A stretch of DNA of 64,000 bases from Candidatus Coprenecus stercorigallinarum (GTDB lineage Bacteria; Bacteroidota; Bacteroidia; Bacteroidales; UBA932). The notes beneath the pieces were generated by a model. That model was not told where the DNA came from. It saw only the letters and a list, made by a program, of their open reading frames with translations, and ran no database searches. The stretch is taken from NCBI GenBank assembly GCA_018711305.1, contig DVIL01000034.1, positions 1 to 64,000 on the forward strand. The letters run 5' to 3'. Each line of letters starts with the position of its first letter. Positions within the stretch are counted from its first letter, which is position 1. A program made the translations under genes and the position numbers. Positions 8,333 to 23,480 of the stretch are shown piece by piece.

Positions 8333-8563
8333 GAGAATTGCACGGTGTTTTCCAAGCAGCTATAAGCCAACACTTTACAAAACGGCCTGCAATTCTCGCT
8401 ACCTCAGAAGCAGTCGAAAATTGCGCACTGTTTTACATACTACTGATAATCAAAGATTTGGAAAAAGCCGTGCAATTCTCGCACTGCTCCGGATGCCTGA
8501 GAATTGCACGGCATTTTCCAAACAATTATAAATCAACACTTTATAAAATAGCCCGCAATTCTC
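8333..8563. repeat. Three 65-bp palindromic RAYT-associated units (orientation A-B-A)
   Basis: Units at 8333-8397, 8416-8480 and 8499-8563. Ends are GAGAATTGCA/TGCAATTCTC with minor variants. Two 18-bp linkers give an exact 83-bp period. Confidence 0.9.
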
Positions 8564-8564
8564 A

Positions 8565-9413
8565 CTACCTGCCGTATATCTTTTTGAGCAAATCCGTACT
8601 CAGGCCGGAGAGCCTGGCCATCTGCTTGATGCTGCAACCGAACTGTTTTCTAAGATATTCGGCCAGGTGGCACCTCTGCTCCACACCCAGACTCCCAGTA
8701 TCCGATGTGCCGAATTCCCGAAGGCATATCTCCCTAACGGAGCCGAGCAATTCCCCGTCGGTATAGGAGACAGTCCCCAGTACCCCCTCGGAAAGAGACA
8801 TTTCCATCCTCATATTGCGCGACAGATAGTGCATAAATCTGGCCGGGGAACCGAAAATCTCCTCTACTTTTTTATGGTTGACATAATTGGCTGGACAGAT
8901 TGTCCCCTCCGGAGTCAGCCGATAGTCATCTGGAAGTGCCAGGTTGGAGTGCAGCATCTTCCTTATCTCCCTGTACCCGAAATCGGATACCCGTCGGTAT
9001 TCCACCGGCAGCAGCAGACTGTCCTTCCTGAAATAGCAAGAGCCCGAACCCCATTCATAAAAAAGCGGCAGCACTTCCGGATCCGAAGAAAGAGAATTAC
9101 GCAGTACGTAGGCGACCGTCCTCATGAAGGTTTCCTTGTCCGGAATCTCCTTCATACCCACAGCGCTGTTTCCTCCCATATCAGCCAGCCGGGACAGCCT
9201 GCGCCTATAATTTCTCATAAAACCGAGACACGAATCCTCACGGCCAGTGACTACGAAATGTACATGATTGGTCATCAGTGTGAAAGACAGAACATCTACA
9301 CCACACATCAGCGCACAGACAGGCACTCCGTTCATTCCGTAAACGAAATCCTCCCTGCTTCGGAATATCAATCCCTTCTCCAGCCCCCTCGTATACGCGT
9401 GCCAGTATTTCAT
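8565..9413 (-). mobile_element. REP-associated tyrosine transposase (Y1 HUH family, RAYT/TnpA_REP)
   Basis: HUH motif TNHVHFVV, candidate catalytic Tyr in FMRNYRRRLSRL, C-terminal HTH-like GCSIKQMARLSGLSTDLLKKIYGR; flanked by palindromic repeat arrays. Confidence 0.85.
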
Positions 9414-9651
9414 ATATCCCCAAAGTTAGCGAACTTTTTGAAAGAGGCAATAGGCCAAATGTAGAATTTTACCAAATGGGGGAATAGGGTAATCCGCTTG
9501 GAATCCGAGCTACATCAATCGGAGATGCTTGACTATGGAAAATATGGTTACGCGCAATAATACCCCTTGGCCGCAAGAAGAAGCCGCCCTAACCTCCACT
9601 ATGAATTTTATTATGTTGAAATTTATCGATACTCAGGATGTCTGTAAAATC

Positions 9652-9882
9652 GAGAAATGCACACCGTTTTACAGACTTCTGATAATCAAAGACTTGCAAA
9701 AGGCCGTGCAATTCTCAGGCACCATGGACAGTGCGAAAATTGCACGGCATTTTCCAAGCAGCTATAAGTCAACACTTTACAAAACGACCTGCTATTCTCA
9801 CTACCTCAGAAGCTGTCGAAAATTGCACAGCTTTTTACACACTCCTGGTAATCAAAGGTTTACAAAACGACCTGCAATTCTC
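9652..9882. repeat. Three 65-bp palindromic RAYT-associated units (orientation B-A-B)
   Basis: Units at 9652-9716, 9735-9799 and 9818-9882, again with 18-bp linkers and an 83-bp period. Confidence 0.9.
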
Positions 9883-11330: not shown

Positions 11331-12221
11331 TTATATATAATTGTTCCTATTTATCAGGTTTACAAGCACCTTTACCATCGTATCCTTCTCTTCTGCCCGG
11401 CTTTCAGCGATCATCAGCGTAAGAGCGACAAGAGTGTTGTCAGCTATGCGCTTCGTGCCGTCCGGATTGTAGAGGATGCCGTTTTCCGCCATAAACCACA
11501 GAAAAAGAGTTGCGGCAATGCGCTTGTTACCATCTGTGAACGAATCATCTTTTTCATTTGCAAACCACTTGCTTCCACCGAACTTTGCCTTCAGTTCGCG
11601 GATAACATTCATAGCTCCTTCGTAGGTGGCGTGGAACTTTTCTTCACTGGTGGTTTGTTCTATTGACAACTGCTGATAATCGTACCTGTCCAGAATATCC
11701 AATGCATAAGTGTAGTTGGAAACGACTTCTATCAAGTCCAGTGCATCTTTGGAAGTCAATGCCTCCTGTGATTTGACTGTCCGTCCCAGGACGGCCACCA
11801 ATTGCTTCAATTCTGAATATCGCTGTTCGGTCAAGGCCTTATTTACAGCATAGCCCTTAACCAGATAATCTTTCAGTACCTTATTGGCCCACATACGGAA
11901 CTCGACGCCTTTTTGCGATTTCACGCGATAGCCTACTGATATTATCACATCCAAGTTATAGAAACTCACATCATGTGTCTGAGTTTTTCCAGTCATGGCT
12001 CCGTGCTGAGTGGTTGTCGCAAATTTTGCGACAACCACTTCTCCTGCCAGTTCTTCACGAATGGCATTGTCAATATGCTTTCTTATAGTCTTAGAATCTC
12101 TTCCAAATAATTCTGCCATTTGACTGACATTCAGCCACACCATTTCTTTATCGATCTTTACCTCCAACTGCGTTTCTCCATCAGCAGAACGGTAAATTGC
12201 TATTTTATCACTCAAATCCAT
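11331..12221 (-). CDS. RhuM family protein with a C-terminal Fic/Doc-like domain
   Basis: RhuM N-terminus (VWLNVSQMAELFGRDSKTIRKHI...FATTTQHGAMTGKTQTHDVSFYNLDVIISVGYRVKS) followed by DSFTDGNKRIAATLF. Confidence 0.85.
   Translation of the reverse strand: MDLSDKIAIYRSADGETQLEVKIDKEMVWLNVSQMAELFGRDSKTIRKHIDNAIREELAGEVVVAKFATTTQHGAMTGKTQTHDVSFYNLDVIISVGYRVKSQKGVEFRMWANKVLKDYLVKGYAVNKALTEQRYSELKQLVAVLGRTVKSQEALTSKDALDLIEVVSNYTYALDILDRYDYQQLSIEQTTSEEKFHATYEGAMNVIRELKAKFGGSKWFANEKDDSFTDGNKRIAATLFLWFMAENGILYNPDGTKRIADNTLVALTLMIAESRAEEKDTMVKVLVNLINRNNYI
12009..12039. repeat. Perfect 31-bp palindrome inside the RhuM-Fic coding sequence
   Basis: agtggttgtcgcaaa-t-tttgcgacaaccact (15+1+15). Confidence 0.95.
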
Positions 12222-21363: not shown

Positions 21364-21511
21364 GCGGAACGCACCGCCCCTTACAAGCCGCTTTAAACCA
21401 ACGTATTGCAAATTGCCTTGCAATTCCCGGACTCACTTGACACCACGAGAATTGCACCCTATTTTGCATGTAACTTCAAACAAACACATTACGAACAGCC
21501 CTGCATTTCTC
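21364..21511. repeat. Degenerate pair of 65-bp RAYT-associated palindromic units
   Basis: 21364-21428 and 21447-21511, separated by an 18-bp linker; same unit length and period as the arrays around the RAYT. Confidence 0.7.
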
Positions 21512-23463: not shown

Positions 23464-23480
23464 ACTCCTTCGGAAGGAGT
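23464..23480. terminator. Short perfect hairpin downstream of the MFS gene (possible terminator or REP-like element)
   Basis: actccttcggaaggagt palindrome with no strong T-tract. Confidence 0.3.

Follow-up and report, generated by a model that had tools for sequence, protein, structure and literature searches.

A RAYT transposase and its probable partner repeats: families of 65-bp palindromic units in fixed-distance pairs in a genus of Bacteroidales

Why does a transposase-like gene sit in the middle of a strictly regular array of long palindromic repeats in a Bacteroidales genome, and are gene and repeats partners? The locus lies in the first 64,000 nucleotides of contig DVIL01000034.1 (hereafter the window), part of the 2.1-Mb draft genome of Candidatus Coprenecus stercorigallinarum (the source genome, G000), whose group consists of uncultured bacteria of the gut, and it bears on the open question of the long-term retention of RAYTs, which are domesticated transposases, by bacteria, over millions of years. 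A prediction made from the letters of the window, without database searches, had proposed a REPIN-like system built around a RAYT (TnpA_REP-like Y1 HUH protein); here we follow up that prediction by computation.

The original prediction described six palindromic units of 65 bp, joined by 18-bp linkers in an 83-bp register and ordered A-B-A, RAYT, B-A-B. Every start and length proved exact (Table 1): the unit starts step by 83, 83, 1153, 83 and 83, which sets the window linkers at exactly 18 bp, and the six true units score 62–87 bits with a position weight matrix (PWM) under which the best unrelated site in the window falls below 0. The alternation is real, as the number of bases in common out of 65 is 54–59 between A units and 52–56 between B units, compared with just 42–50 between A and B in direct orientation; A and B are divergent variants. 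Unit orientation had been thought readable; the orientation of A relative to B is in fact difficult to tell, every unit being a palindrome in its own right. The RAYT stop codon lies, as stated, in the linker after unit 3 (TAG, reading CTA at 8565–8567). The placing of the RAYT in an A-to-B linker of a hexamer describes the window locus correctly but fails as a general rule, for sister RAYTs with repeats detected on both flanks sit between two complete pairs: the hexamer with a RAYT in its linker is one local state, and pairs are the commonest form. A CRISPR-like array was rejected because the linkers are fixed 18-mers and the units divergent; integron/attC-like cassettes seem unlikely, there being no cassette ORFs between the units. 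The window also holds a RhuM-family protein (PF13310) close to the locus, at 11331–12221, and a perfect short palindrome, ACTCCTTCGGAAGGAGT, at 23464–23480, which recurs at several genome loci and near the arrays in L104, L109 and L111 and may be a separate small repeat family.

Table 1. Repeat units, linkers and RAYT features in the window (plain numbers), with copies of two further repeat families elsewhere (contig or locus: position).
Feature	Location	Strand	Basis
Unit A1, palindromic, 65 bp	8333..8397	.	coordinates and A/B comparison
A-to-B linker gctacctcagaagcagtc, 18 bp, contains TCAGAAG	8398..8415	.	
Unit B2, palindromic, 65 bp	8416..8480	.	
B-to-A linker gcactgctccggatgcct, 18 bp	8481..8498	.	
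Unit A3, palindromic, 65 bp	8499..8563	.	
RAYT (TnpA_REP-like Y1 HUH protein), 282 aa	8565..9413	minus	ORF, alignments, NCBIfam, AF2 model, Foldseek
RAYT HUH motif N49-H-V-H52; presumed catalytic Tyr Y102 (consensus YVLRNP); Y119-x-W121			
RAYT C-terminal four-helix HTH-like domain (predicted), residues 216-282	8568..8768		predicted model
Unit B4, palindromic, 65 bp	9652..9716	.	
B-to-A linker aggcaccatggacagtgc, 18 bp	9717..9734	.	
Unit A5, palindromic, 65 bp	9735..9799	.	
A-to-B linker actacctcagaagctgtc, 18 bp	9800..9817	.	
Unit B6, palindromic, 65 bp	9818..9882	.	
Second family-1 array, 2 units (21364-21428, 21447-21511), 83-bp register	21364..21511	.	PWM scan
TCCAGCA pairs in G000	C1:33501/33606, C14:37349/37464, C37:8566/8671, C84:2690/2805		
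TCCAGCA pairs flanking RAYT-like ORF C78:1020-1430	C78:407/522 and 2032/2137		
TCGTGGTGCAC...GCTGCACATTTG copies	L109:1744-1891, L107:6560, L102:1535, L106:165, near L112:2394 and L113:2343		

The gene was rightly called a RAYT. Its HUH motif and tyrosine are intact, and both (N49-H-V-H52 and Y102) vary little if at all across 45 aligned proteins, 43 of which match the NCBIfam model REP_Tyr_transpos at E ≤ 0.01 (best 1.3e-10). The window protein itself falls short (REP_Tyr_transpos E 0.093, Pfam Y1_Tnp E 0.21) and is a divergent copy that is missed at the thresholds of both databases. An AlphaFold (AF2) model of pLDDT 85 gave as its top PDB match in Foldseek 4er8, the Escherichia coli TnpA_REP bound to a REP hairpin (E 7.7e-4), and a PDB profile search with the RAYT alignment returned a weak IS200-type match only. 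The C-terminal four-helix domain is predicted at pLDDT 89; its assignment as helix-turn-helix (HTH) is tentative, resting on weak HTH matches, with no Bac_DnaA_C among the families listed and no significant fold match. The idea that the TTTTnYAA core of the units is a DnaA box, by analogy with the DnaA_C-like tail reported for related RAYTs, is attractive but speculative, as the C-terminal domain has no significant DnaA similarity.

Copies of the window's unit (family 1) were counted from searches with a sequence-only model, since RNAalifold gave no pairs from which to build a covariance model. The source genome has 138 matches at E ≤ 1 (both strands counted) and approximately 21 arrays, and matches at E ≤ 0.01 occur in 31 of 60 genomes. 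Strong matches (about E ≤ 1e-10) are restricted to the genus, in many though not all of its genomes; the weaker ones outside it reflect the common core or chance. The expectation of REPIN-like repeats beyond the window is thus borne out by dispersed arrays in the source genome and by a family that is spread genus-wide. Of 49 unique adjacent pairs across the genus, 47 are spaced 83 bp and two 82 bp, and this constant spacing persists despite a median identity among units of just 62%. Pairs, the inverted-dimer feature of REPINs, make up 25 of 50 distinct arrays, alongside eight triples, three quadruples and 14 singles, a few of which belong to a related family. Unit ends are sharp: beyond them, conservation is limited to a purine at +1, and no other conserved cleavage motif was found outside the units. 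The palindromes could in principle act only once transcribed, by terminating transcripts or stabilising mRNA where genes end, and have no role at the DNA level; several arrays do begin a short way past a stop codon (the array at 8333 by 10 bp, that at 21364 by 31 bp). However, array position relative to genes is mixed (five lie between two 3′ ends and three between two 5′ ends, the others being mixed or at contig ends), neither an RNA consensus structure nor covariation is seen and RNA hairpins need no strict 83-bp spacing, and we regard this explanation as very improbable.

Are other RAYTs accompanied by repeats of the same design? Each unit consists of two inverted half-sites (a family-specific arm of ~10 bp, N5 and a TTTTnYAA-type core) around a TGAnnnTCA-like centre. 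Because a free search for units of any length or spacing near RAYTs returned noise, flanks were scored on the core motif only, ignoring the arms, for two units 82–86 bp apart within 700 bp, with a threshold at the 99th percentile of 137 control segments. A scored pair was found within 700 bp at 25 of 49 family-level RAYT loci, on both sides in 14 of them, although detection in family 1 and in one related family is not independent, the core model having been built from these two; about half of the 49 loci gave no significant pair with this core-motif detector, and among more distant RAYT loci only three of 31 exceeded the threshold. The arms differ between RAYT clades and are common within a clade (Mantel r 0.86, reached by none of 5,000 permutations), a signal to which one orthologous group contributes most. 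Below 60% RAYT protein identity, arm similarity stays level at 0.38–0.46; above 80% it stands at 0.85.

Pattern searches recovered several of these families. In the source genome the TCCAGCA...TGCTGGA family comprises 12 units in six pairs against a control count of zero; 11 units are 65 bp long and one is 67 bp, under a pattern that allowed 59–74 bp, and the pair spacing is 105 or 115 bp (linkers of about 40 or 50). The difference of 10 bp between these spacings is close to one helical turn. All four exact copies of CTAAACA...TGTTTAG are 65 bp long, as are all matches to TCGGTGTG...GCACATTTG across 19 genomes, and those to TGACGCAC...ATGATCTTT, a pattern that begins and ends within the 65-bp unit, have a single length of 62 bp. 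Units are thus 65 bp almost without exception in searches that permitted other lengths and, as the arms of these four families are unrelated, the length is a property common to families, as is the TTTTnYAA core. Pair spacing is 82–86 bp across families and 105 or 115 bp in one. Several RAYT paralogues each carry their own unit family with unrelated arms in a shared 65-bp frame, so that the tie between repeats and RAYTs holds for the paralogues, through family-specific arms.

Repeat presence had also been expected to follow RAYT presence. It does so for the TGACGCAC family, which occurs in 10 of 19 genomes, each time beside an ORF of that RAYT clade, plus one extra copy, but not strictly for family 1: in G017, G003, G014 and G018, all metagenome-assembled genomes (MAGs) of 83–95% completeness, family-1 units are present and no RAYT of the window's exact type was found.

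Several further observations concern RAYTs and repeats. The TCGGTGTGC clade is one sister RAYT clade, and the isolate Muribaculum sp. An289 also carries RAYTs of this kind together with pairs (L210, L233). In G014 (C26:26157-26989) a TGACGCAC-clade RAYT is split into two adjacent matches, possibly a pseudogene, with its cognate unit still alongside. The inverted pairs of a second family, TCGTGGTGCAC...GCTGCACATTTG, are framed by a further inverted repeat of ~20 bp, TTGAACGAATTTACTTCG, forming a longer MITE-like element, and in another species (L197) a RAYT is flanked by this family. A dispersed inverted repeat of ~110 bp (GAAAATCCAGCAGTCGAAAAGACCAGGCCC... / ...AGTCTTTTCTCGTTGCTGGATTTTC) occurs in G000 and G014, in the array flanks of L011, L108, L115, L116 and L185. 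A palindromic family with AAAATGTAAG-type ends and another internal geometry is multi-copy in G000 (L104:10134-10251, L107:6159-6276, L110:2541, L109:2022).

Taken with the flanking repeats that mark a REPtron (three units on either side of the window RAYT, and scored pairs on both sides at 14 sister loci) and with its dispersed copies (~21 arrays in the source genome, 12 units of the TCCAGCA family), these results make a partnership of the REPtron/TIRtron kind the probable explanation: short non-autonomous repeats of a family of its own would lie around the RAYT, which would be specific for them. Alternatively, the units could be miniature elements of an unrelated transposase or recombinase acting on double strands, into which a RAYT was inserted by chance. 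The sharp unit ends, with nothing conserved beyond the +1 purine, would suit such elements, but no other transposase is seen tied to the units and the arrangement is met again on either side of many different RAYTs, and we think this the least probable of the explanations considered.

Dispersed copies are under constraint. Among orthologous family-1 units, picked by their flanks, changes fall at 10 of 450 motif positions and, elsewhere in the unit, at 36 of 465 (odds ratio 0.27, P = 1e-4, an approximate value since the motif was derived from this very family and certain pairs have a genome or site in common). Divergence at the motif is thus some 3.5 times slower than outside it; a larger automatic ortholog set, which includes some related-family units, gave the same ratio. 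Constraint on half-sites, like the TTTTnYAA core common to families, would be expected if selection kept the repeats as places on the chromosome where a host DNA-binding or nucleoid protein binds, and RAYTs merely adjoined them. This we consider unlikely, given that the arms vary by RAYT clade and are common within a clade, that one unit family (TGACGCAC) is confined to genomes with its RAYT clade and that a single genome can hold several paralogues, each with a separate family. The partnership of RAYT and repeats remains the preferred reading.

Array sites are polymorphic between genomes. Site C93 carries an array in G000, G003 and G013 but is empty in G011 and G012; at site C1, G000 and G002 have the array and G018 and G011 the empty site. 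The flanks of the empty sites are just about 77–81% identical, and loss would look the same as gain. Where arrays differ in length between species, they do so in steps of 83 bp (three units compared with two) or 167 bp (four compared with two). At the place of the 21364 array, G014 has four units, and in G017, G011, G012 and G013 no array can be aligned past the stop codon of the gene. In G002, an insertion of 2.7 kb next to the C93 array carries another gene (599 aa), not a RAYT. The window locus itself exists in a close relative, G017, as A-B-A without a RAYT (L118:3732-3962), its left flank and array being 98.4% identical over 3,963 bp; this genome has five clear family-1 units, compared with roughly 45 in G000. 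The last 24 bp of B6 are identical to those that close the final unit of this RAYT-less locus. Once reverse-complemented, the B4-A5 linker of the window agrees with the B-to-A linker of G017 at 17 of 18 bases, which suggests that the linker has been inverted between palindromic units. With a last unit that ends like B6 and a linker that matches when inverted, the two states are linked by more than one rearrangement.

How might the RAYT recognise its units? The original prediction placed them in a BIME/REPIN-like system, and this part of it needs change, as two features that define REPs fail. There is no GT[AG]G foot (the motif stands at 19 of 200 ends, compared with 13.8 in shuffles, 95% range 8–21), RNAalifold found no consensus pair in 22 family-1 units and, across 80 family-1 units, variable arm positions pair at about the rate expected by chance (observed and chance values 0.65 and 0.65 at 2/64, 0.40 and 0.50 at 3/63, 0.51 and 0.48 at 6/60), with no covariation either within these units or between the units of a pair. 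Since both the tetranucleotide foot and the family-1 arm covariation fail, we do not file the units as REPs. Variable family-1 positions are restricted in kind (A/T at 6 and 60, A/G at 3), as would be expected of a protein motif and not of decay. The lack of covariation in family-1 arms implies that each half-site is conserved on its own.

These features count against canonical REPIN behaviour, in which the RAYT would recognise the single-strand hairpin of a unit or a whole pair and the palindrome would be kept because it must fold. They are joined by the folding of the six window units, which for three of them is not clearly superior to that of shuffles (z −1.0 to −1.9). Yet the RAYT fold and HUH core match TnpA_REP, arms change across RAYT clades while staying largely complementary, and most RAYT-adjacent pairs fold as single strands better than shuffles (z −2 to −8), four of six much better (z −4.8, −6.4, −8.2 and −5.3). 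In several other families outer arms match outer and inner match inner, as in a REPIN; in family 1 the palindromic nature of the units makes this inversion harder to see. We lean against hairpin recognition while granting it a serious chance; it competes with duplex reading as a step and not with the partnership of RAYT and repeats.

On balance, the RAYT seems to read each half-site separately, for which duplex DNA would be the simplest form; recognition of duplex in preference to hairpin comes, in our estimate, slightly short of an even chance. Linkers of 17–20, 40 and 50 bp lie close to whole helical turns apart and would fit units facing one side of a duplex, offered here as a suggestion only, from few independent families. 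A broader proposal, which we advance tentatively and think somewhat doubtful, is that the RAYT is a duplex-DNA reader that assembles on four phased half-sites with a 65-bp ruler, the dispersed copies being selected binding sites of a domesticated genome-wide DNA-binding system and not of a parasite. If this were so, the dispersed copies would be functional sites and the linker lengths would reflect whole helical turns.

A working mechanism can be drawn by analogy, its binding, cutting and movement steps being inferred from work on TnpA_REP and REPINs (PMC3116915, PMC8049555, PMC6006769). The commonest form in the genome is a REPIN-like pair, 65 bp, short linker and 65 bp, with a linker length fixed within a family. 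RAYT protomers would bind the four half-sites on duplex DNA, binding itself being likely. The arm would make binding specific to the family, and two units would be kept in register by their constant length and by the phasing of the linker. The HUH/Tyr centre would nick and rejoin a strand when it is single-stranded, for instance at the replication fork, and such strand cutting and joining would spread pairs at a low rate; movement of the repeats by the RAYT has, we judge, a good probability. Recombination or slippage between neighbouring units would alter array length in 83-bp steps.

The finding extends REPIN-like systems, in well-defined form, to Bacteroidales, for which the open-access literature, in the portions cited below, notes only 'atypical' structures. 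With several RAYT paralogues in one small genus, each with a separate family, the same 65-bp frame and constrained half-sites, it also offers a natural test series, which could test whether a RAYT targets hairpin or duplex, where specificity comes from and whether the host gains anything from the repeats.

Among known systems, the nearest relatives are the REPIN-RAYT and TIRtron-TIRYT systems. In Pseudomonas fluorescens SBW25, REPINs are inverted pairs with group-specific spacings of 71 and 110 bp (Bertels & Rainey, 2011; PMC3116915). Our repeats resemble these in having inverted pairs as the main unit, spacing fixed within a group, tandem clusters and a RAYT beside its own repeat group. They differ in their 65-bp unit, compared with much shorter REPs, in having no GT[AG]G foot and no hairpin covariation in family-1 arms, and in a copy number of tens and not hundreds.

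TIRtrons comprise Y1 HUH RAYT-like proteins (TIRYTs) with inverted repeats on their flanks that bear no relation to GTAG REPs and in part form moderate families in dimers or clusters; the proteins have C-terminal HTH-like tails (PMC3733652). TIRYTs are probably subclass 2.1 of TnpA_Y1, going by the portion of Quentin et al. (2018; PMC6006769) used here, and the tail of TIRYTs and subclass 2.1 is DnaA_C-like, HTH_23 or HTH_28. Non-GTAG inverted repeats are common to TIRtrons and our system, and so may be an HTH-like C-terminal tail. However, TIRs either share GGGGWSAS (most, not all) or are unrelated to each other (PMC3733652), whereas our units have a constant 65-bp length, a common core and fixed-spacing pairs; GGGGWSAS is not in the unit consensus. 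In the same portion of Quentin et al. (2018; PMC6006769), no REP-like sequences are described near HTH-tailed subclass 2.1 proteins.

That portion also assigns 'atypical secondary structures' to Bacteroidetes subclass 2.6 (RAYT group 5 of Bertels), which resembles our system in its phylum and in non-canonical palindromes that flank the gene and have copies elsewhere in the genome. There, however, the median protein length is 179 aa, compared with ~280 here, the tyrosine motif is YIH[QN]NP and not YVLRNP, and the text description gives no common geometry (PMC6006769). The original prediction had not recognised the fixed 65/18 geometry as described, and no account of it appears in the open-access papers covered here. 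The partnership of a transposase with repeats is of a known kind; what is new is its form, 65-bp units in fixed-distance pairs.
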